A program made the position numbers and the translations under genes. DNA of 18,326 bases from contig MGSU01000044.1 in NCBI GenBank assembly GCA_001799195.1, positions 10,519 to 28,844 on the forward strand, in the 5' to 3' direction. The stretch comes from Deltaproteobacteria bacterium RIFOXYA12_FULL_61_11 (GTDB taxonomy: Bacteria; Bdellovibrionota_F; JAHFAK01; YA12-FULL-61-11). Shown here in pieces: positions 6,108-18,326 of the stretch (position 1 is the stretch's first letter; each line of letters opens with the position of its first letter). Below the pieces are notes generated by a model. That model had not been told where the DNA came from and did not search any database. It was given only the letters and a program-made list of their open reading frames with translations.

Positions 6108-6136
6108 TTGACATCGCACCTCCGACCGGCTAGGAG
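6108..6136 (+). promoter_or_regulatory. Candidate promoter for the plus-strand giant lipoprotein
   Basis: A perfect -35 box TTGACA (6108-6113) is followed after 17 nt by TAGGAG (6131-6136), a poor -10 box (3 of 6). The distance to the ATG at 6186 is suitable. TTTGACA here is mirrored by TGTCAAA at 6041-6047 just before the divergent start, which may be chance. Confidence 0.35.
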
Positions 6137-6185
6137 AAGGGTGCGGAAAGCATCGCGACAACCGTTCAGTGCCAAGGAGCAAGCC

Positions 6186-9100
6186 ATGCATACCCTTCCC
6201 ATCCTTGCGAGCCTCATGTTGCTGTTGCTGCTCGGCTTCGGCTGTGAGCAGAGTTCCAACGACGATCTTCCGGGCGATGCCTCTTCGACCGGGGACCCGA
6301 GTGCCGACCCCTCGACGGACGATCCGGGCAAAGAGCCGGGACAGAACACGGACGATCCGACCTCACCTGCTACCGAGGTCGAACTCGATCTCCCTGCCTC
6401 AGCCCTGGTCGGAGGAAACGCCACCGTTTCCATCATCGACCTGGCCGAACTGCGTTCCGGACTGAAGGAACTCGGTCTACCCCTCACCCTGGGCAGCTCC
6501 GATCGTTTGCTCACCGGCGCGATGGTGATCTTGGGCACCGTCGGCCAGGCGGTCAGGGTCAGCACTTCCTTCTCGCTCCTCCTGGACCGCGGCAATTTCG
6601 GCGACCTCGCCCTCACCCCTGACCTCTTTGCCGACAAACCTCGCGAGGCCCTGTTCCTCCTTCCCGAGGGTACCGCCTCCGGCCGGATCATCCGCAGCTT
6701 CTATCTCCTCATCGGCCCCAAGGGCGACCTGCTCTCCGCACCGATTCGCGGCCAATTGACCCTGGACGAGAACACCGGCCTGGTCAAGGCGGTCCTCCTG
6801 CCCTCCCACTTCGATCCGGCCGGCGTACCCGGCGGAACCAAGGTCATGGTCGTCCTCTTGCTCACCGAATGGGGCGGCATTGACCTCAGACTCGGCCCGA
6901 TCACGCTGGAAGAGCTCACCGACGGGTTCCTAGCCGACCTCTCGAAGCTCTTCCCCGAACGCTATCGCCCCACCATCCAGACGGTGCTCGGCAACGGCTC
7001 GGCCGACGACGTGATCAGGGACGCACTGATCGTGGTCGGCACCAACCTCGACCGCACGACCGCGGTGCGGCTCGAAGGCGAGGGGAAAACCCGCCACGAC
7101 CTGGTTATCGCCCAACAGAGCAAGACCGATCTGATCGCGAGACTCGACACGACCATCCTCCCCGGGACTTACAAACTCCTCCTCGACAGCGAACTCGGTG
7201 CGGTCTCGACTCAGGTCACCCTCCTGCGCGGAGAGAAGGGTGATCCCGGTGAGAAGGGCGAGCCGGGTGATGCCGGTCCCGATGGTCTTGTAGGCCCTCG
7301 CGGCGAGAGCGGAGCCACTGGGCTGCCGGGACCGCAGGGGCTCCCCGGTGAGGACGGCTTGCCAGGGATTCCCGGACAAGACGGACACGAGTTGCTGGTC
7401 CTGGTTTCCTCCGAACCCGCGGGCGAGGCTTGCTGGGACGGTGGCTACCGGCTCACCCTCGGCCTCGATGACGGCGAGGGCAGCGCAAACCCGGACAACG
7501 GCATCCTCGAAACCGACGAGCGCGACGAGGTATTTTTCCTCTGTCACGGCGAACGCGGCCTGACCGGCCCACGCGGCCTCAATGGCACCAGCGGCTACAA
7601 TGCCTTAGTTGTCACTCAAACCCTTGAACCGGGAGAGACCTGCGAACTCGGCGGCACCTCGATTTCGGTAGGGCAGGACAACGGGCAAGACGGCGGCATC
7701 GCGAACGACGGGGTGTTGCAGTCCGGAGAGCTCGATGACGTGACCTTCTTGTGTCTCGAGGACTCGCTCGGAGAGACCAGCCCCGAGATAACCTCCATCC
7801 CGGTCGCCGAAGTCTACGAAGACGACTCATACTCCTACCCGGTACAAGCCTCCAGCCCCCTGGGAGCCTTCTTGGTTTACAGCCTCGCGAGTTTCCCCTC
7901 CGGGATGTCGATCAACCCCCTTACCGGGCAGATCGTCTGGTCCCCCGAACTCCTGGATTGCGGGTACCACGTGGTCACGGTCCTGGTCCTTGCCGATCGC
8001 GGCGGTATGGCCATGCAGAATTTCATCCTGACCGTGCTCCCGCGCCGCCTCAATCCCTTCCCGATGAACTGGTCCGACACTCTTCCGGCCCCGCCGGTCG
8101 GACCGAGCCTCAAGGCCGCGGCGTTCGCCGATGCCCAGTATGCCATCGCCGTGGGTGAGGGCGGCTACCTCCTCTTGGGGGACTATTATATGGGCAGTAC
8201 CTGGACCATCGAGAACTCGGACACCTCCGAGGACCTCCGCGGGGTCAGCTATCCCGACCCCTACTTCGCCGTGGCCGTGGGCACCAACGGCACGGTGGCC
8301 TATGCCTGCGACGGTATGAGCTACTGGTGCGCCGACCAGAACGACACCTCCGAGGACCTCAACGCCGTGGACTTCGTCGACGGTCAGTGGGGTTGGATCG
8401 TCGGCAACAACGGCACCATCCTGCGCGCTGATCCGGACCACTACCTCGGCAGCGGCTTGGCGGTGCTCGACAGCGGCACGAACTATGACTTATTCGACGT
8501 CGACTTCGTCGATGCCTTGAACGGTTGGGTCATCGGCGCTTTCGCCACCATCCTGCACACCACCGACGGCGGCGAGACGTGGACCCCACAGAGCGGTCAG
8601 GTGGGAATCGCCAATCGCGCCATCAACATGGTCGACTCCAATGTAGGCTATATCGCCCTGGGACCCAGTCCTTACCACTTTGCCTACCTGAAGACCACGA
8701 ATGGCGGCACGACCTGGGAACCGATCACTCCGTTCGAACTGCCACTGAATTACTACATCGAGTTCTCGGACATTGCCTTCGACGATAGCGACCATGGCTG
8801 GCTGCTCAACGCCGATGGTACCCTGCTCGTCACCAATGACGGCGGCACAACCTGGTCCTCGAGCCTCGCGGCCAGGGGTAACACCACGGGGATGGCCAAG
8901 TTCGACCAGAACACCGGGCTCCTCTTCGGCGCCCCTGACGGCGGCTTCATAGCCTACACCGCGAGCGCGGGGATGAACTGGAGTTACGACTACTTCCGGC
9001 TCCCCGTGGACCTGACCGTGGTGCGCGTGACCGACGGCGGCCTCATGGTCGGCGGCGGTCTCTACCCCTGGTCTACCTATGACGGACCGAGCTATCTCGC

Positions 9101-9902
9101 GACCTGGAATGGCGAAATGGGCTGGTCTCCCCAAATCCTGGACCATGGTCGGGCCATCGTGGACCTCGACTACGCCACGAGCAGCGAAGCCTACGCTCTG
9201 GCCGGACATGCAGCGTATTACACGTATGACGGAGGCAATACCTGGAACCCGGATGACGCAGCCGCAGGCGGCACCGCCCTCAACTACCCCAACGGCGACT
9301 CCTACTGGTTGGTCATCGACGGCGACCTCTATACCAACAGTGACGGACCCTCTTTGATCGACAGCCCCGACCTCGAGACGGTCTTCCTGCAAGACGTCTT
9401 CGCCGTGGACGTCTCCGGAGATCTGGCGATCTGGGTCAGCGGGTACGACACCTCGACCCAACCTCCCTACGCCCGGGTGATCCTCCGCTCGAACGACGAG
9501 GGCGACACCTGGACCGAGCAGCTCCGCTTCGGTGCAGCCGACTCGCCCAAGACCACCTTGTTCCTGGTGGACGCGCGACACGGCTGGGTAGCCACCGAGA
9601 CCGGCGAAATCTACGCCACCACCGACGGCAACCTCTGGCACTACCAAGGCCGGCCGACCACCCAAGGGCTCAACAAGCTCTTCTTCGTCGACATCTTCGA
9701 AGGGTGGGCAGTGGGTAATGGCGGGACCATCCTGCACACGGCCAACGGCGGTCTGGACTGGGTCACGGATACGACCGAGGTCATAGTCCCGCTCTACAAT
9801 CTCCACGCCAATGATAGTGGTATTGTTGCCGTGGGAGCCCAGAACACCGTGCTCGAACCGAGCCTGGGCTTGGGAGACAATATCAAAGTCATCCTACCCT
9901 AA
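6186..9902 (+). CDS. Giant lipoprotein: stalk, collagen-like tract, Cys-paired repeats, cadherin-like domain and Ycf48-like propeller
   Basis: 1238 residues. The ATG at 6186 has AAGGAG 6 nt upstream, and the signal sequence begins there. Residues 1-20 are a lipoprotein signal (five consecutive Leu, then GFGC; Cys20; the -2 Phe is unusual). Residues 21-70 are an Asp/Thr/Pro stalk with GDPSADP. Residues 71-348 are beta-rich and unassigned. Residues 349-402 are 18 unbroken Gly-X-Y triplets. Residues 403-453 and 473-523 are two copies of a repeat of the form PGxxC-x2-GG...GxD...NG-x-L...FLC, separated by six more Gly-X-Y triplets. Residues 530-620 resemble a cadherin-like/He_PIG domain ([17 protein letters not shown]). 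Residues 633-1238 carry about ten Ycf48/BNR-like repeats (GWxVGxxGTILxTxDGGxTW). This is a surface-exposed, rod-plus-propeller adhesin-like design. Ligand unknown. Confidence 0.92.
7230..7391 (+). repeat. Collagen-like Gly-X-Y tract (18 triplets)
   Basis: Codons for residues 349-402 of the giant lipoprotein encode 18 uninterrupted Gly-X-Y triplets, including [13 protein letters not shown] and [10 protein letters not shown]. Six further triplets lie at 7548-7601. Pro is common at Y and charged pairs (EK, DP, EP) stand where bacterial collagens gain stability. A trimeric triple helix is expected from family knowledge; it is not shown here. Confidence 0.9.
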
Positions 9903-10151: not shown

Positions 10152-10417
10152 GGTGATTCTCCTCGAGTTCCCTGCGGCAACCTCGTCGGGATCTTTTCAA
10201 CCTCTGTTCCACAAACAACATTATGAATATATTACAACAGACCTTCCTTTCTCATGCTTCAACCGTCAGGTGAGTGCCTCAACCCTCAGTTTTCCGAGGG
10301 ATCCATCCCATGCTCTCGACCACGAAAATCATTTGACCCTCGGTTGGGTATGGGTGAACCTCCTTCGGACGAAGTTCCCGTCCTGCCGTTCTGGACAACC
10401 ATGCGAGGATGATGACG
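10152..10417. promoter_or_regulatory. Divergent intergenic region with a 14-bp direct repeat
   Basis: This 266-bp gap separates the small exported peptide gene (minus) from the pfaD-type gene (plus). It includes an AT-rich block (about 10208-10240) flanked by TCTGTT (10203-10208) and its complement AACAGA (10236-10241). GCTTCAACCGTCAG (10256-10269) and GCCTCAACCCTCAG (10276-10289) are direct repeats with two mismatches, offset 20 bp, close to two helical turns. This spacing suits a regulator bound to one face of the DNA. No convincing -35/-10 pair was found on either strand. Confidence 0.5.
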
Positions 10418-11857
10418 ATGCAGCCACCGACCTTGATCGAAGGGTACGACCGTTGTGGTCTGCGGGCAGAGCAACTCGGCGCACCGGAATTCAGGACCGC
10501 CCATGGCTGTCGTTATGCGTATATCGCGGGAGCCATGTTCAGCGGCATCGCCGGCGTCACCATGCTCGAGCGGTTGGCGGGGCGAGGTTTGCTCGGCTTC
10601 TTCGGCAGTGGGGGACTCTCGTTGCAGGAACTCGAGGCAGCCCTGGCCGCCTTGACCACCAAGCTGAGTAGGGAACGTCCCTGGGGGTGCAACCTCCTGC
10701 ACAACCTCTACGAACCAGAACTCGAAGAACGTACCGTGGACCTGTTGCTGCGGTACCAGGTACGACGCATCTCGGCCTCGGCCTATACCCGGCTAACCCT
10801 CCCCCTGGTCCGCTACCGGGTCACCGGACTGCAGCGCACCCCCGGAGGCGAGGTCAACCCCCGGCACCAGCTCTTGGCCAAGCTCTCGAGGCCCGAACTC
10901 GCCGAGCAATTCCTCGCACCGCCGCCGGCGAAGCTCCTGTCGAAGCTGTTCGAGGACGAGGCGATCACCCGCGAAGAGTACGAACTGGCCCAGAACCTGC
11001 CCATGGCCGACGCCATCACCGTCGAGGCCGATTCCGGAGGACACACGGACAAGGGCGTGAGCACGGTCCTGCTCCCGGAGATCCAGCGGTTGCGCGATCG
11101 GGCCCGCGAGAGACACCACTACTCCCCGCGGGTGCACATAGGAGCTGCAGGAGGGCTCGGAACGCCCATGGCCGTCGCGGCGATGTTCTACCTCGGAGCG
11201 GACTATGTCCTCACCGGGTCCGTCAACCATTGCACGGTCGAGGCCGCGACCAGCGAACCGGTGAAAGATCTGCTGGAGAGAATGAGTCCGGTGGACGTGA
11301 CCATGGCACCTGCGCCCGACCTGTTCGAACTCGGAGCCAAGGTCCAGGTACTGCGCCGGGGGGTACTCTACCCGGGGCAGGCCAACAAACTCTACGAACT
11401 CTATCGGACCTATCAGCGCTGGGAAGACCTTCCCCTCGTCGAGCGAGAGAAGCTCGAGGCCAAGGTGTTCCGCCGTCCCTTCGTCGAGCTTCTCACCGAG
11501 ACTCTCTCGTACTGGGACCAACGCAAACCCGAACTGGCCGAGAAGGCTCGAGCAGAATCCCACCTCGCCCTGGCTCTGGTGTTCCGCTGGTATCTCGGCA
11601 AGTCGTCGCGATGGGCCATCAACGGGGATCCCGAACGCAAGCAGGATTATCAGATCCACACCGGTCCGGCTCTCGGAGCCTTCAACTCCTGGGTCGAGGG
11701 CACCCCCTATCAGTCTTGGCGAGCCCGCCACGTCGACGAGGTGGCCGAGTTGCTCATGCAGGGTGCGGCGGTGCACGCCGCGGCCCGAGGCGGAAGAGAG
11801 GGAGGAGGGTTCCGCGGGTCCGGTCCTGGGGAACCCCGACCGCTGGCGAGGGTTTGA
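10418..11857 (+). CDS. pfaD: PfaD-type enoyl reductase of polyketide/polyunsaturated fatty acid synthesis
   Basis: 479 residues. The ATG at 10418 is chosen because GAGG lies 9 nt upstream; in-frame ATGs at 10409 and 10412 lie too close to it. PfaD-family proteins are FMN enzymes with a nitronate-monooxygenase-like barrel, which act in trans as enoyl reductases for PUFA synthases and trans-AT polyketide synthases. Visible family marks are EADSGGHTDKG (about 202-212), GAAGGLGTP followed by YVLTGSVNH (about 242-272), and the C-terminal block DYQIHTGPALGAFNSWVEG. The last 25 residues are a Gly/Arg-rich tail not expected in the family. The gene is separated by 89 nt from the ACP gene, which has its own candidate promoter, so it may be a separate unit of the same pathway. 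Identification of the family is secure; the substrate is not known. Confidence 0.93.
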   Translation: MQPPTLIEGYDRCGLRAEQLGAPEFRTAHGCRYAYIAGAMFSGIAGVTMLERLAGRGLLGFFGSGGLSLQELEAALAALTTKLSRERPWGCNLLHNLYEPELEERTVDLLLRYQVRRISASAYTRLTLPLVRYRVTGLQRTPGGEVNPRHQLLAKLSRPELAEQFLAPPPAKLLSKLFEDEAITREEYELAQNLPMADAITVEADSGGHTDKGVSTVLLPEIQRLRDRARERHHYSPRVHIGAAGGLGTPMAVAAMFYLGADYVLTGSVNHCTVEAATSEPVKDLLERMSPVDVTMAPAPDLFELGAKVQVLRRGVLYPGQANKLYELYRTYQRWEDLPLVEREKLEAKVFRRPFVELLTETLSYWDQRKPELAEKARAESHLALALVFRWYLGKSSRWAINGDPERKQDYQIHTGPALGAFNSWVEGTPYQSWRARHVDEVAELLMQGAAVHAAARGGREGGGFRGSGPGEPRPLARV

Positions 11858-11946: not shown

Positions 11947-12201
11947 ATGTCCGATCTCCACGCCGAGCTGCGCGACTACCTTTCCAGAACCTTCCTGATC
12001 GACTTCCGGGGACCGGTCGAGGAGAGCAGCAACCTCTTCGACCTCGGCTACCTTGATTCGTACGGTTACATCGAGTTGATCAAGCACCTCGAAACCACCT
12101 ACGGTCTCTCCATCAGCGAAGAGGAGATGCTCTCGGACGCGCTCAATTCCCTGCACAACATCGTCGTATTGGTTTCCTCCAAACGCTCGACCGAACGATG
12201 A
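11947..12201 (+). CDS. Free-standing acyl carrier protein
   Basis: 84 residues, the usual length for a discrete ACP or PCP. The phosphopantetheine attachment site is Ser38 in LGYLDSYGYIELI (33-45). The LDSxGxIEL form resembles discrete carrier proteins of secondary metabolism and DltC-like carriers more than the GADSLD form of fatty acid ACPs. Helix 1 (about 3-17) and the region after Ser38 show the normal four-helix pattern. The start has GGAGG 6 nt upstream. The stop overlaps the next start (ATGA, 4 nt), tying translation of this ACP to the PP-loop enzyme. In family terms it carries acyl or aminoacyl groups as thioesters. Here it could be loaded by the AT two genes downstream or present a substrate to the PP-loop enzyme. 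Confidence 0.92.
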   Translation: MSDLHAELRDYLSRTFLIDFRGPVEESSNLFDLGYLDSYGYIELIKHLETTYGLSISEEEMLSDALNSLHNIVVLVSSKRSTER

Positions 12202-13229
12202 ACGAACCGATACGCTGCAGCACCTGCGTCCTCCCGGCCTCCTTTCCCGGAGAAGCCTTCGACGCGGAGGGCCGTTGCCATAACTGCCAAGAGCATTCCC
12301 CCGAAGCGAGCCGTGAGGCGCGTGCGGCCGGCCGCCGTGAGCTGGAAACGGTCTACGCTCGGTACCGCGGTTGGGGCAGCCCGAACTGCGTGCTCGCCTT
12401 CAGTGGGGGCAAGGACTCCGCCTTCACGCTCGCCCACCTCGTCCGGGAGGCTGGGCTGAAGCCCTTGGCCGTCCTGATCGATCACGGCGCCATTGCAGGT
12501 GAAGCCCTGGAAAATGCCTCCAGGGTTTGCGCAGCTCTCGAGGTAGATCTCCTGATCCTAAAACCTGCCCCTTCGCTGTTCCGCAGGTTGGTCCGAGCTT
12601 CGCTTGAGCTGCCCGAACTGCACCCCCCCTCGGCCCTTCGGCGCGCCTCGGCGATTTGCCTCTCCTGCATCTCCCTGATCAATGCCCAGGTGACCGCGGT
12701 CGCTCTCGAAAAAGCCGCTCCCATCCTTGCCGGGGGCTACGTGAGCGGTCAGCATCCGGACGATCGACCCGTCCTGCGCATCCCCAAGGCCGCAAAACAC
12801 CGCCTCGGAGAGCTCCAAGCCCAACGCTTCGGTAAACTGCTCGGGCCCGAGGTACAGGCCTATTTCACGCTTCCCGAACACCGATATACCACCTATCCGC
12901 ATCCCGAACTGACCTTGATCAACCCCCTGCTGGCAACCCCGATCGCGGAGCGCGAGAAGCTCGCGGCGCTCGCCGAGCTGGGTTGGCGCCAGCCCCCCGG
13001 CACTGGTAGGAATTCCAGCAACTGCCTGCTCAACGATCTCGCGGTGATCCTCCACCAACGGCGGCACGGGTTCCATCCCTATGTGTTCGAGGTCGCCGCG
13101 CAGGTGCGCAACGGCGAGTTGAGCCGGTCGGAGGCCCTCGCCAAGCTCTCCCTCGACCATCTCGACCCGGCCGACTTCCACGCTCTCGCGCGGCAATTCG
13201 GTCTCGACCCTTCGGTGCTCGATGTCTAG
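12198..13229 (+). CDS. PP-loop (AANH-type) ATP pyrophosphatase, candidate amide- or thio-transfer enzyme
   Basis: 343 residues. The PP-loop SGGKDS (69-74) defines the N-type ATP pyrophosphatase family, which adenylates a carbonyl so that nitrogen or sulfur can replace oxygen. N-terminal CSTC (7-10) and CHNC (27-30) form a probable zinc knuckle, as in N-acetyl sugar amidotransferases of the WbpG type. CLSC (154-157) and GTGRNSSNC (268-276) are further conserved-looking Cys sites. Homologs include TtcA/ThiI-like sulfur transferases and, in natural-product pathways, AANH-like enzymes such as CtaC of closthioamide synthesis that act on carrier-bound substrates. The 4-nt overlap with the ACP gene and 8-nt overlap with the acyltransferase gene suggest it works on an ACP-bound intermediate. 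Whether it adds nitrogen or sulfur cannot be told from the sequence. Confidence 0.85.
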   Translation: MNEPIRCSTCVLPASFPGEAFDAEGRCHNCQEHSPEASREARAAGRRELETVYARYRGWGSPNCVLAFSGGKDSAFTLAHLVREAGLKPLAVLIDHGAIAGEALENASRVCAALEVDLLILKPAPSLFRRLVRASLELPELHPPSALRRASAICLSCISLINAQVTAVALEKAAPILAGGYVSGQHPDDRPVLRIPKAAKHRLGELQAQRFGKLLGPEVQAYFTLPEHRYTTYPHPELTLINPLLATPIAEREKLAALAELGWRQPPGTGRNSSNCLLNDLAVILHQRRHGFHPYVFEVAAQVRNGELSRSEALAKLSLDHLDPADFHALARQFGLDPSVLDV

Positions 13230-14124
13230 GACCGCGGTGGTATTCCCGGGGCAAGGCGCCCAGAGCGCCTCCATGTTGGACTCGGTGGCAAGACTCCCCC
13301 AGTACAGCGCCCGCCACGAGGTGGTCTGCGAAGCCTTGGGTGAGAACCTCGAAGCGCGGCTCGCCGATGGCGATCCGGACTACCTGCGCCGCAATCTCCC
13401 CACATCGCTGGCCACGGTACTCGCGAGCGTGGTGGCCTATGAACGCTACGTGGACGAATGCGGTCCACCCTCCTGCTTGGGCGGGTACAGCGTTGGTCAA
13501 TGGACCGCGCTCTATGCCGCAGCAACCCTCGATTTCCGCACCTTGGTCGAGGTCGTGACCCGGCGGGCGAAACTCATGGATGCCTGCCTCGAAAACCAGA
13601 ACACCGGCATGCTCGCCGTTATCGGGCTCCCGCTCCGACCTCTCGAAGCCCTCTGTGCTGAGTTCGCCGGACGCGGCCTGTACCTCCGCCCCAGCACCAT
13701 CAACTGCCCAGGCCAATACTCCCTCTCGGGCACCCTCGAGGCGATCGAACAGGCCCTCGCCGAGCTCGCCCCTCTGCATCCCAAACGGCTGCTTCGCTTG
13801 CCGTTACAAGGTGCCTGGCATTGCGACCTGTTGGCACCTGCAGCTCGAGCCTTCGCCGAATACCTCGATACCCTAACCCTTGCCATGCCAAACGTGCCGA
13901 TGGTCGATAACGTCACCGGGACCTGGCTGGACGCTGCGGCGCTCCGGGCAACCCTGGCTACCCACCTGCACCGGCCGGTGCTCTGGGAACGCTGCGTGCG
14001 CACCCTGCTCGAGGACGGGTGCACCGAGGTGGTCGAGGTCGGTCCCGGCGAGCTGCTGACCCGTTTCGGTTTCTTCCTCGATCGCAAGGTTCGGTTCCGT
14101 TGTTACCGTCCCGGGGTTCCCTGA
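13222..14124 (+). CDS. Free-standing acyltransferase (FabD-like, probable trans-AT)
   Basis: 300 residues, the normal FabD length. It would move malonyl (or another acyl) units from CoA to ACP domains. Motifs are PGQGAQ (9-14, oxyanion region), nucleophile Ser90 in GYSVGQW (88-94), Arg115 in VTRRAKLM, NCPGQYSLSG (161-170) and catalytic His200 in GAWHCDL. The catalytic set is complete, but GYSVGQW departs from the common GHSLGE and GAWH from GAFH, which may mean altered acyl choice or a hydrolytic (proofreading) role, both known among discrete ATs of trans-AT clusters. The start overlaps the PP-loop gene by 8 nt, and the TGATG at its end couples it to asnB. Its location in a cluster with PfaD and PKS genes favours a pathway enzyme over housekeeping FabD. 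Confidence 0.92.
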   Translation: MSRTAVVFPGQGAQSASMLDSVARLPQYSARHEVVCEALGENLEARLADGDPDYLRRNLPTSLATVLASVVAYERYVDECGPPSCLGGYSVGQWTALYAAATLDFRTLVEVVTRRAKLMDACLENQNTGMLAVIGLPLRPLEALCAEFAGRGLYLRPSTINCPGQYSLSGTLEAIEQALAELAPLHPKRLLRLPLQGAWHCDLLAPAARAFAEYLDTLTLAMPNVPMVDNVTGTWLDAAALRATLATHLHRPVLWERCVRTLLEDGCTEVVEVGPGELLTRFGFFLDRKVRFRCYRPGVP

Positions 14125-16091
14125 TGTGCGGCGTGGCCGGTTATTTCGATCCGCGCAGAGCTACGACCCATCCGCGCAACCTGCTCGTACACATGGCGGA
14201 ACGCCTCGCGCACCGGGGTCCGGATGAAACCGGATTCGTCCAAGGCCGCGGTCTGGGACTCTGCTCGACCCGCCTCGCCATCATTGACCCCCGCGGCGGG
14301 CAGCAACCCCGATCCGATGCGGGCAAACGCTACTGGTTGGCCCTCAATGGCGAGCTCTACAATTTCGAGGCACTGCGTGCCGAATTGCTCGGGCTCGGAC
14401 ACTCCTTCACGACCAATTCGGACACCGAGGTGCTGCTCGCGGCCTGGCTGGAGTGGGGCCGAACCGTCTTTCCCCGGCTCATCGGTTCCTACGCCTTCGC
14501 CCTCTACGACAGCCTAGCCCACCGACTTGTCCTCGCCCGAGATCCCTTCGGCAAGCGCCCGCTCTTCTATACCCACGTCGGCGGCGAAGTACTCTTCGCT
14601 TCGGAAATCAAAGCCTTCCTCGGGTTCCCGGGTTTTACCCCCCGCTTTTCTCCACGCGCCCTCCTCGATCTCTATTCCCTCTGGACCCCGCTCCCAGACC
14701 AGAGCTGTTTCGAGGGGGTGCGGCAAGTACCGCCGGGCCACCTGCTCGAGGTGACTCCCGAGGGATGCGACCTGTGGGCGCACTATCGGCCCACGTTCAC
14801 CCCGGACGGACCCGGGTCCATGGAGCTGCCCGAAGCTGCCGCCCTGCTGCGAGAAACCGTCTGCACCAGCATACGTCACCGACTCCGCAGCGACGTGGAA
14901 ATCGGAGCCTATCTCAGTGGCGGACTGGATTCCGCTATCGTCACCGCCGTGGCTTCCTCGTTGCTGGGCCACCCTCCACGCACCTTCTCCCTGGGTTTCG
15001 AGCAAGCCGGTTATGACGAAGGTCCCGAACAAGACCTGCTCGTTGCCGCGCTCGGCTCCGAGCACCAACGCCTGACCATCACCGCCGCCGACATCGCCAG
15101 GACTTTCCCTGCGGCCTTGTGGCACGCCGAAGTGCCGGTCTTCCGCACCGCCTTCGTGCCGATGTACCTGCTCTCCGGGCTCGTCTCTGAGGCCGGGATC
15201 AAGGTTGTCCTGACCGGCGAGGGAGCGGACGAGCTGTTCCTGGGCTACGACCTGTTCAAGGAGACCCGGTTGCGGGAACTGATCGCTGCGGGCCACCCCC
15301 GAGAGGACTTGCTGGAACGGCTCCGAGGCCTCTATTCCTACCTACCCCATTTCGGTCCGCAGAACGCGAGCTACCTCTTGGCCCACATGCAACAATGCGC
15401 TATTCCCCCGGAGGCCGAGCTGTTCTCCCACCATCTCCGGTTGCTGGGGTCGCGCTTGAGTCGGGACCTGCTGGCACTCGCAGGCAGCGGGACTGAGACT
15501 CTGCTCGAACTCTTGCGAAGAGAGGACAGCGGTTTCCCGGTCCACTCGTCCCTGGCCAAGGCCCAATGGTTGGAATGCACGACCCTCCTCGAGGGCTATC
15601 TGCTCTCGACCCAGGGGGACCGCATGGCCATGGCCCATGGGGTGGAGAACCGTACGCCTCTTCTCGATCCCGCGGTGTTCCGCTGTGCCGCGAACCTGCC
15701 GGAAACCTGGAAACTCCGCGATGGTCGGGAAGAAAAGTACCTCTTGCGCAAGGCCTTCTCCGACCTCCTACCCGAAGCGATCCTGCACCGGGTGAAACGG
15801 CCCTATCGCGCTCCGGATGCCCGGTGCTTCCTCGGTCCCGACGCTCCACCCTATGTTGCCGAAGCGCTGCGGCCCGAACGCCTCGAGGCCGTGGGCGTGT
15901 TCGAACTCGCCAGAACGAACGCCTTCCTCCAGCGGCTGCGCACCCTCGCCCCGGACGCCCTCTCCCCGGCCCAGGACCAGGCCTTCCTGCTCCTGCTCTC
16001 CACCGTGCTGCTCCACGAACAGTTCATCGAGGGGCATACGCCCCCTCCCGCTCGCCCCCTTGGATCTTGCACGTGGTACGACATGGTGTAA
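14124..16091 (+). CDS. asnB: Asparagine synthase-like glutamine amidotransferase (AsnB type)
   Basis: 655 residues. The start at 14124 puts Cys at position 2, the N-terminal nucleophile of class II amidotransferases once Met is removed; longer in-frame starts would destroy this. The glutaminase half (1-about 215) shows RGPDE (31-35), NGELYN (75-80) and SDTEVLL (99-105). The synthase half has the PP-loop SGGLDS (265-270) and GEGADELFLGY, as in active AsnB. It releases ammonia from glutamine and transfers it to an AMP-activated carboxyl group. In polyketide clusters such enzymes commonly make terminal primary amides, but making asparagine is not excluded. It is joined to the AT gene by a 1-nt overlap (TGATG) and is the last gene of the operon. 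Confidence 0.93.
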   Translation: MCGVAGYFDPRRATTHPRNLLVHMAERLAHRGPDETGFVQGRGLGLCSTRLAIIDPRGGQQPRSDAGKRYWLALNGELYNFEALRAELLGLGHSFTTNSDTEVLLAAWLEWGRTVFPRLIGSYAFALYDSLAHRLVLARDPFGKRPLFYTHVGGEVLFASEIKAFLGFPGFTPRFSPRALLDLYSLWTPLPDQSCFEGVRQVPPGHLLEVTPEGCDLWAHYRPTFTPDGPGSMELPEAAALLRETVCTSIRHRLRSDVEIGAYLSGGLDSAIVTAVASSLLGHPPRTFSLGFEQAGYDEGPEQDLLVAALGSEHQRLTITAADIARTFPAALWHAEVPVFRTAFVPMYLLSGLVSEAGIKVVLTGEGADELFLGYDLFKETRLRELIAAGHPREDLLERLRGLYSYLPHFGPQNASYLLAHMQQCAIPPEAELFSHHLRLLGSRLSRDLLALAGSGTETLLELLRREDSGFPVHSSLAKAQWLECTTLLEGYLLSTQGDRMAMAHGVENRTPLLDPAVFRCAANLPETWKLRDGREEKYLLRKAFSDLLPEAILHRVKRPYRAPDARCFLGPDAPPYVAEALRPERLEAVGVFELARTNAFLQRLRTLAPDALSPAQDQAFLLLLSTVLLHEQFIEGHTPPPARPLGSCTWYDMV

Positions 16092-16299: not shown

Positions 16300-16388
16300 G
16301 AGAAAAAACCTGGTTTTCTCATCCCTGGCAAGTTATAGTAAATCTCTATTTTTTCATGAAATGATATAACCTAGGTGATTTCATGAAA
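16300..16388 (+). promoter_or_regulatory. AT-rich promoter/operator region of the ParA-PKS operon
   Basis: AT-rich against a GC-rich background. AAAACC-T-GGTTTT (16305-16317) is a perfect 13-bp palindrome centred about 35 bp before the start site expected from TATAGT (16334-16339). The palindrome TTTCATGAAA occurs twice, at 16352-16361 and 16379-16388; the second copy contains the ATG of the ParA gene. A second -10-like box, TATAAC (16365-16370), lies between the two copies. No good -35 box is visible for either. The layout fits autorepression by the HTH domain of the encoded protein. Confidence 0.65.
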
Positions 16389-17348
16389 GAACTCGACAAC
16401 AGGGTCACCCTCGCCGATGCCGCGGCCATGCTCGGCATCAGCCGCGTCGCGGTGACCAAGAAGTTGACCCTCTTAGGTATCGAGCCGATCCAGATCCGCA
16501 AGGGCAACACCGAGGTACAGGGCCTGACCCCGGAACACCTCCGCCACTTGCGCAGCTCCAGGGCCGGCACTAGTCCCGTCCCGGGACGTCCACTGGTGCT
16601 CTCGTTCCAGGGATGTAAGGGCGGCATTGGAAAATCCACCCTCTCGTACAACTTCGCCCTGCGCGCTTCGCAATACGGACTGCGGGTCCTCTGCATCGAC
16701 ACGGATCAGCAGAGCCACCTGACCTTGTGCCTCTGCGGGAAGGCTCCGGGTAACCGCTGTTGGTACGACCTTCTCGAAGGCCAGACCACCCTGCGCGAAG
16801 CCATCGTGCCCTGGCGGGAATACCTGCACATCGTGCCCGGCACCATCCATCTCGCCCTGATCGACTACAAGTACAATGACCGGGCTCACCCCGAAGCCCT
16901 CTTCGGCCGCTACCTCGAGGAGGTCGAGGCCGACTACGACCTGGTCGTGGTCGACTGCGCGCCCTCGCTCTCCCTGCTCAACCAGGCCGTGGCCTATGCC
17001 TCGGACCGCATCGTCATCCCCCAGACCCCTTCGCGCCTGAGCTTCGACGGCCTCGAGCTGACCATCAACTTCCTCGAGGACCTGCACGAGAACTTTGAGA
17101 AACAGCTCGACGTGCGCATCCTCTGCAACATGGTCGAGCCCGACGAACTCAGCTCGATCCGCATCATCTCGCACCTCTCCAAAACCTATGGCGAGGCCCT
17201 GTGCAGGACCTTCGTCCACCGCAGCCAAACGTTCCTGGAGGCCATCGACGCCGGCACCAGCGTCTTCGACTACACCCTCAAGGCCGATACCGCCCGGGAC
17301 GATCTCGATGCCCTGACCCGGGAACTGCTCGCCGACCGGCTCTCCTGA
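16383..17348 (+). CDS. ParA/MinD-like ATPase with N-terminal HTH domain
   Basis: 321 residues. Residues 7-35 (VTLADAAAMLGISRVAVTKKL) form a MerR/excisionase-like helix-turn-helix. A Ser/Pro linker (58-70) leads to the ATPase, with deviant Walker A KGGIGKST (79-86, including the signature Lys79), Walker A' IDTDQQ (105-110) and Walker B VVVDCAPS (188-195). Such ATPases switch between monomer and DNA-bound dimer with ATP and drive partition or positioning of plasmids, chromosomes and protein bodies; P1-type ParA also uses its HTH to repress its own operon. The SD AGGTG precedes the ATG by 5 nt. No ParB gene is seen nearby. Its stop overlaps the PKS start (TGATG), so the two are translationally coupled, an unusual partner for a ParA. 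Regulation or subcellular placement of the megasynthase is inferred. Confidence 0.92.
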   Translation: MKELDNRVTLADAAAMLGISRVAVTKKLTLLGIEPIQIRKGNTEVQGLTPEHLRHLRSSRAGTSPVPGRPLVLSFQGCKGGIGKSTLSYNFALRASQYGLRVLCIDTDQQSHLTLCLCGKAPGNRCWYDLLEGQTTLREAIVPWREYLHIVPGTIHLALIDYKYNDRAHPEALFGRYLEEVEADYDLVVVDCAPSLSLLNQAVAYASDRIVIPQTPSRLSFDGLELTINFLEDLHENFEKQLDVRILCNMVEPDELSSIRIISHLSKTYGEALCRTFVHRSQTFLEAIDAGTSVFDYTLKADTARDDLDALTRELLADRLS

Positions 17349-18326
17349 TGGCCACGATCGACGACCTCCTGCGCAGCAAGCGCAAGCTGCTCGCACGCCT
17401 GGGAGAAGACCCCTTCTTCCCGGGTTCGGTGCTGGGTAAGAGTCCCTTCCGGGAGGATCGGCGTCCCTATCTGCGCTGTTGCAAGGCCGCGGCCGCAGGT
17501 ACCCAGCCGGCGGACATCGCCATCATCGGCCTGGCCTGCCGCTTCCCCGGCGCCGACAACGCTGCGGCGTTCTTCGAGCTGCTCTGCTCGGGCAAGACCC
17601 TGTTCGAACCCCAGGTCCGGGACCGGATCGCCTTACCTCCTTGGCAGAATTTCTCCCCGCAGGACCCGAACTACGTGCCGGTCAAACCCTCGATCGCCGC
17701 TCCCCTGGCTTTCGACGCAGCCTTTTTCGGGTACTCCGAGGAAGAAGCCTCGTGGATGGACCCCCAACAGCGCTGGTTCCTCACCTGCGCCTGGGAGGCC
17801 TTCGAAGAAGCCGGCCACGATCCCCGTTCGTTCCCCGGCAAGGTGGCGGTCTTCGGCGGTACCTCGAAGAACACCTTTCTGCCGCTGCTGCTCGGAGCAA
17901 GGAGCTTCGATAATCCGATCGACCTGTTCCGGGCTCAGACCACCGGGAACATGGTCGATCACTGCACGACCCGCGTCGCCTACAAACTCGGACTCACCGG
18001 CCCCGCCGTCACCGTGCAGACCGCGTGCTCGACGTCGTTCACGGCCATTCATCTCGCTTGCGAGTACCTGCGCCACTGTCAGGGCGACCTAGCCCTCGCC
18101 GGCGGGGTTTGTCTGAGCTTCCCGACCGAGGCGGGCTATCTCTACCAGGACGGGTTCATTGAATCCCGCACCGGGAACTGCCGGGCCTTCAGCGCTGCCT
18201 CCGACGGTACCGTGTTCGGGGACGGCGTCGGCGTGGTCCTGCTGCGCCGGCTCGAGGACGCCTTGGCCGCCGGGGATCACGTCCACGCGATCCTCCGGGG
18301 CACCGCGATCAACAACGACGGCGGGG
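17348..18326 (+). CDS. Polyketide synthase, N-terminal ketosynthase domain (partial, right edge)
   Basis: The frame stays open from the ATG at 17348 to the window end (326 codons). Residues 1-55 are a charged N-terminal segment (DDLLRSKRKLLARLG) that may be a docking helix. The ketosynthase starts at DIAIIGLACRFPGA (56-69). MDPQQR (137-142) is the usual KS motif. The catalytic Cys227 lies in QTACSTSF, and GNCRAFSAASDGTVFGDGVG (276-295) follows. The His residues of the Cys-His-His set lie beyond the edge. The sequence type resembles KS domains of trans-AT or hybrid NRPS-PKS assembly lines rather than FabF. No loading domain precedes the KS, so this may be an elongation module fed by another protein. 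It shares a TGATG stop/start overlap with the ParA gene. Further domains are expected downstream but cannot be seen. Confidence 0.95.
   Translation, partial: MATIDDLLRSKRKLLARLGEDPFFPGSVLGKSPFREDRRPYLRCCKAAAAGTQPADIAIIGLACRFPGADNAAAFFELLCSGKTLFEPQVRDRIALPPWQNFSPQDPNYVPVKPSIAAPLAFDAAFFGYSEEEASWMDPQQRWFLTCAWEAFEEAGHDPRSFPGKVAVFGGTSKNTFLPLLLGARSFDNPIDLFRAQTTGNMVDHCTTRVAYKLGLTGPAVTVQTACSTSFTAIHLACEYLRHCQGDLALAGGVCLSFPTEAGYLYQDGFIESRTGNCRAFSAASDGTVFGDGVGVVLLRRLEDALAAGDHVHAILRGTAINNDGG

Follow-up and report, generated by a model that had tools for sequence, protein, structure and literature searches.

A trans-AT polyketide synthase as candidate cargo of a dedicated plasmid-type HTH-ParA ATPase

Results

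Two overlapping genes close the window, by which we mean the whole analysed stretch of 18,326 nucleotides (bases 10519-28844 of G000:C44, a contig of 28,844 bases from the metagenome-assembled genome of an uncultured bacterium; window and contig end together): the gene of an HTH-ParA ATPase and, directly downstream, that of a polyketide synthase (PKS). The first ~43 residues of this PKS (MATIDDLLRSKRK...DRRPYLR) match the peptide with which the partner proteins of related plasmid ParAs begin, and then lead straight into a ketosynthase. Judged from sequence, the PKS is probably the partner of this ParA, its N-terminus being a natural "luggage tag" that would make the synthase ParA cargo. The link between ParA and PKS made in the original prediction is strengthened by this peptide and weakened by the occurrence of the pair in one genome only.

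The HTH-ParA gene (16383..17348, plus strand, 321 aa) was delimited as an open reading frame and characterised by Pfam, alignment, tree and model. Its product matches Pfam AAA_31 at 1.1e-33 and belongs to the ParA/MinD (deviant Walker A) ATPases, having the KGGxxK[ST] motif with its signature lysine, the Walker B aspartate and the ParA fold. Both nucleotide-binding motifs are intact, as had been claimed: the deviant Walker A, KGGIGKST, occupies residues 79-86 (16617..16640, plus strand) and the Walker B, VVVDC, residues 187-191. K79, K84, D106, D108 and D191 are conserved family-wide, and all catalytic residues are present. An AlphaFold2 model built from a 9-sequence alignment (mean pLDDT 85) places a winged helix before the ParA domain, with predicted helices at 10-17, 21-30 and 50-58 and strands at 36-40 and 43-48; with the alignment, this delimits an N-terminal winged helix-turn-helix at residues 8-58 (16404..16556, plus strand). 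The best structural matches of the model are two HTH-bearing partition ATPases, Vibrio cholerae ParA2 and 3ez2. The original prediction had no ParB in view; none was found anywhere on the contig, and the standard chromosomal ParA-ParB pair of the same genome lies on contig C208.

In a 41-row tree, this ParA and a paralogue from the same genome (44% identity, on contig C161, immediately downstream of an rRNA operon) are sisters (100/99), within an HTH-ParA clade of 20 rows (support 100/98) that comes from plasmids of Piscirickettsia, Legionella, Megaera, Bandiella and Cardinium, from contigs of a viral collection and from a few genomes. Assignment to this clade of Piscirickettsia/Legionella/Rickettsiales plasmids is given both by the tree and by the bipartite peptide encoded downstream. 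The locus L087 (Paraclostridium sordellii pCS1-6) was excluded from the motif work and the tree, and no close HTH-ParA was found in a phage collection. The same clade includes an HTH-ParA of the killer-particle plasmid pKAP298 of Caedibacter taeniospiralis (L125). The paralogue itself (L006:11430-12822) stands directly 3' of a 23S-5S rRNA operon and overlaps the gene of a protein of 144 aa that begins with a tag, is rich in Lys, Pro and Ala in its middle part and ends in what looks like a coiled coil; this second pair is chromosomal and non-PKS. In one phylum (that of G029, probably Myxococcota; loci L207-L215 and L011), the proteins encoded after the HTH-ParAs conserve another N-terminus, M[KR]xxFDxNVSRxKPR, and these HTH-ParAs were dropped as a comparison set on that account.

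The PKS belongs to a trans-AT polyketide synthase cluster, with a free-standing acyltransferase and a PfaD-type trans-enoylreductase beside it. On the plus strand, the genes follow in the order PfaD-family trans-acting enoylreductase (10409..11857; TIGR02814 4e-173, above cut-off), free-standing acyl carrier protein (11947..12201), N-acetyl sugar amidotransferase-like (WbuX-like) ATP pyrophosphatase (12198..13229; TIGR03573 2.5e-29, below its cut-off), free-standing acyltransferase (trans-AT; 13222..14124), asparagine synthase-like amidotransferase (14124..16091), HTH-ParA and PKS. Contig C44 also carries chromosomal-type genes, for a tRNA-dihydrouridine synthase and, by sequence, a biotin carboxylase, and the cluster of ParA and PKS is chromosomal. 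In the PKS, an N-terminal extension of residues 1-55 (17348..17512, plus strand), carrying the candidate ParA-partner tag, precedes a ketosynthase that begins at residue 56 (PF00109, 4e-61) and is cut by the contig end (17513..18326, plus strand). A single-sequence AlphaFold2 model of the fragment was unusable (pLDDT 33). The protein had been described as a polyketide megasynthase: a type I PKS ketosynthase is indeed confirmed, while the size, with 326 residues visible and the contig ending inside the first ketosynthase, is one that we infer from the surrounding cluster and from proteins with several KS domains encoded on contigs C16 and C103. Elsewhere in the window, a large lipoprotein-like ORF (6108-9902) combines central collagen-like GXX repeats with a C-terminal half that is repeated and beta-propeller-like, and a sigma-54 activator of possible RtcR type lies on the minus strand (3-899), its frame in the full contig including a stretch that reads N (X in translation).

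The two genes share TGATG (17346..17350, plus strand), the ParA TGA at 17346-17348 overlapping the PKS ATG at 17348-17350, which bears out the stop/start overlap reported earlier. No obvious purine-rich ribosome site precedes the PKS start, and this fits a translational coupling to ParA that the sequence makes plausible.

Most members of the HTH-ParA clade are followed by a gene whose product begins with a bipartite peptide, and in nearly all cases this gene begins at most about 40 bases from the ParA stop or overlaps it. Part 1 is an acidic-hydrophobic-basic helix (e.g. IDELxxK) and part 2 is R-P-[YW], the general pattern behind related HTH-ParAs being M-x-x-I-x-[DE]-L, a basic stretch and [RK]-[PA]-[YW]. 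Such starts are seen in Legionella (MPTIDELSNKSSKRKFKKSDYRPWN), Megaera (MPLIADLNSKKKTNNKFEKKLYRPWD) and Piscirickettsia (MATAEELLKKAENRKKKDKKKFQPTKRRAWD and MPTIEEALAARAKKKKKFKKESLRPYS), as well as in G027 (MPSINSFLEKEKKN...ARPWE), L131 (MASASELLKKHGAR...TRPWQ) and G940 (MANARRGISELLRSGKGKRFR); the partner of the C161 paralogue starts MVKIDEVVKKRKR..KPYF (also written MVKIDEVVKKRKRTEKV...EKPYF). Beyond this peptide, the plasmid partners often have a winged helix by weak Pfam matches, which is what a ParB-like protein would be expected to show. A family of plasmid and mobile-element proteins with M-x-x-I-x-[DE]-L, a basic run and RP[YW] (L073, L075, L085, L076, L081, L123, L127-L134 and L121), in which a winged helix is often weakly matched at the C-terminus, is annotated mostly as "hypothetical protein".

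The full PKS start reads MATIDDLLRSKRKLLARLGEDPFFPGSVLGKSPFREDRRPYLRCC, with the ketosynthase at residue 56, so both peptide parts are present in the PKS: part 1 is IDDLLRSKRK (residues 4-13; 17357..17386, plus strand) and part 2 is R-P-Y (residues 39-41; 17462..17470, plus strand), the spacer between them being longer and less basic than in most plasmid partners. The suggestion that the first 55 residues be searched for a ParB-like segment was thus fruitful, the segment found being a match to the partner peptide of plasmid ParAs.

This similarity was evaluated with a two-block profile (residues 2-9, and five residues around RP[YW] at any position within 15-50) trained on 14 partners from other organisms only, with the PKS and the own-genome paralogue excluded. 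The PKS start ranked first, with 21.3 bits vs 14.6 for the next, among 7,514 candidate starts from 897 ORFs in 1.17 Mb of its own genome; since the blocks were picked by eye after inspection, this and the following ranks are strong and carry no formal probability. Against 1,228 mixed control ORFs, it was outscored only by L151, a true partner, and the next control below it (16.2) was the gene downstream of an HTH-ParA in G145, outside the training set. None of 20,000 shuffles of the PKS N-terminus reached its score. Leave-one-out recovered most training partners (L134 weakly, Cardinium not at all), and the partner of the own-genome paralogue scored 0.6, with 123 controls higher. A regular-expression motif was less sensitive, finding 7 of 19 partners and 2 of 1,237 controls; a second version found 6 of 22 partners and none of 873 own-genome controls.

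A PKS docking domain at residues 1-45 was considered as a reading of the extension and found no support: other PKSs align only from residue ~41 or residues 44-58, or align without the shared tag. None of the other PKSs in 386 genomes matched residues 1-40, which are therefore not a common docking domain.

Discussion

A conserved pairing of HTH-ParA with ketosynthase genes, which the original prediction had proposed as a check, was not seen outside this genome. The matches examined, from 386 genomes spanning the domain, from 195 and 346 genomes of two phyla and from 8 and 58 genomes of two further phyla, contained no second ParA-PKS pair; the phylum of the source genome was represented by two genomes in the comparison set. 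Because the pair comes from a single genome, selection on the ParA-PKS pairing is not demonstrable. A literature search for ParA linked to polyketide synthases likewise returned nothing relevant. Two findings that the prediction had named as counting against it, a pair confined to one genome and a ParA grouping with plasmid proteins, were thus both made, and the third, a nearby ParB, was not, the contig having none. Given the partner peptide on the PKS, the plasmid grouping suggests where the pair came from rather than speaking against the PKS link.

That origin could also be the whole story. A plasmid par operon may have been acquired ahead of the PKS, with a deletion then fusing the first codons of its parB-like gene to the PKS and leaving the tag as a relic and the ParA without any role in polyketide synthesis. 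The largely plasmid-borne clade and the single genome agree with such a history, for which one deletion would suffice. However, the ParA is intact with every catalytic residue conserved, both tag parts and the frame are preserved, the third-position GC of the extension is coding-like (0.78 vs 0.85 for the rest) and the exact stop/start overlap is kept in the operon. These points leave room for a recent event, and we regard a vestigial fusion as unlikely, while giving it some weight.

The region around the ParA start raises the question of expression control. The 10-bp palindrome TTTCATGAAA occurs there in two identical copies within a larger inverted repeat, at 16352..16361 (copy 1, a candidate operator for autoregulation of the HTH-ParA) and at 16379..16388 (copy 2, overlapping the ParA start codon), neither being assigned to a strand; these are two of only five occurrences in the 4.64-Mb genome. 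The palindrome-rich promoter described earlier therefore stands as regards the palindromes, while scans for sigma-70 promoters and for terminators gave no match. By analogy with P1-type par operons, the presence of a winged helix and of two rare palindromes suggests that the ParA may regulate its own expression. The ADP-bound ParA of P1 represses its operator, a precedent for a reading in which the HTH-ParA would be mainly an autoregulator: the tag would feed back on its nucleotide state and the amount of PKS would set the repression, with no positioning involved. The nearest folds include ParA2 and 3ez2, which likewise bear an HTH. Yet the relatives count, by annotation or by placement, as plasmid partition ATPases, and in such ParAs regulation and positioning are combined rather than exclusive, so that control of expression as the main function, with no positioning, seems quite improbable to us. 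As for an accidental resemblance of the PKS start to a partner peptide, the motif is short, the profile was built after inspection and some true partners score poorly, but a best score by a wide margin over the other own-genome starts scored, found immediately after a ParA that belongs to the expected clade, makes chance very hard to credit.

We therefore return to the PKS as a ParA partner. In ParA-type systems, the partner binds the ATP-bound dimer via a short N-terminal aliphatic/basic peptide and stimulates hydrolysis, and the rest of the partner protein names the cargo (PMC10241942; PMC12204374; PMC12462528); the cargo here would accordingly be the synthase. It is believed that trans-AT synthases zipper up into large assemblies (PMC11907408), and cargo of this kind is what a ParA ratchet is able to position and divide. 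From a mechanistic point of view, the ~43-residue N-terminus would be the type of peptide with which plasmid partition proteins of this ParA clade are expected to bind the ATP-bound ParA dimer, joined here without a break to the first ketosynthase where those proteins have a DNA-binding domain. The nucleoid would be covered with ATP-bound ParA. The tagged synthase, clustered as is believed of trans-AT assembly lines, would pull on it through repeated binding and stimulated ATP hydrolysis, and would thereby become distributed across the nucleoid and pass to both daughter cells. The ParA-ADP set free may then bind the two TTTCATGAAA palindromes with its winged helix and hold down the operon's expression. 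This fuller scheme, in which a PKS megacomplex is segregated like a plasmid by a dedicated ParA, and PKS-stimulated ParA-ADP represses the operon so that number, place and expression of the assemblies are coupled, is put forward tentatively, as a possibility somewhat short of even. The mechanism is known; the cargo and the way it is attached would be new.

The known cargoes of ParA-type motors include DNA, carboxysomes, chemoreceptor clusters and flagella, in most cases placed via a separate adaptor. If the present reading is true, an assembly line carrying its own partner peptide would be a new class of ParA cargo, would offer a direct test of the positioning and inheritance of PKS megacomplexes, and would be a natural example of a "luggage tag". 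The bipartite peptide could also be used to search for further tagged enzymes and for partners of orphan ParAs.

Among known systems, the plasmid type Ia ParAs (P1 ParA, Vibrio ParA2) and the Piscirickettsia/Legionella/Megaera HTH-ParA clade are alike in combining an N-terminal HTH with a ParA ATPase, in standing directly upstream of the gene with the N-terminal peptide and in their promoter palindromes. Their partner is DNA-binding, whereas here it is a PKS, the locus is chromosomal and no parS is needed. This does not fit ParABS DNA partition, as the ketosynthase starts at residue 56 and the visible PKS has no DNA-binding domain. Carboxysome positioning by McdA/McdB is similar in that a ParA-type ATPase recruits a protein cargo via the first ~20 residues of the partner; McdB is, however, a separate adaptor, whereas in the present case the enzyme itself bears the peptide (PMC6328274; PMC12204374). 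The ParA here further differs from McdA in having an HTH and belonging to another clade, and the neighbours are those of a trans-AT PKS cluster rather than of a carboxysome or BMC locus. The trans-AT PKS megacomplexes held together by LINKS motifs share the expectation that such synthases form large assemblies, and the parts consulted of a review on them mention neither a ParA nor a partner peptide (PMC11907408). Closest in concept is synthetic "luggage tag" positioning, in which the N-terminal peptide of a partner turns a chosen cargo into ParA cargo; what is an engineering aim there (PMC10241942) has a natural candidate here.
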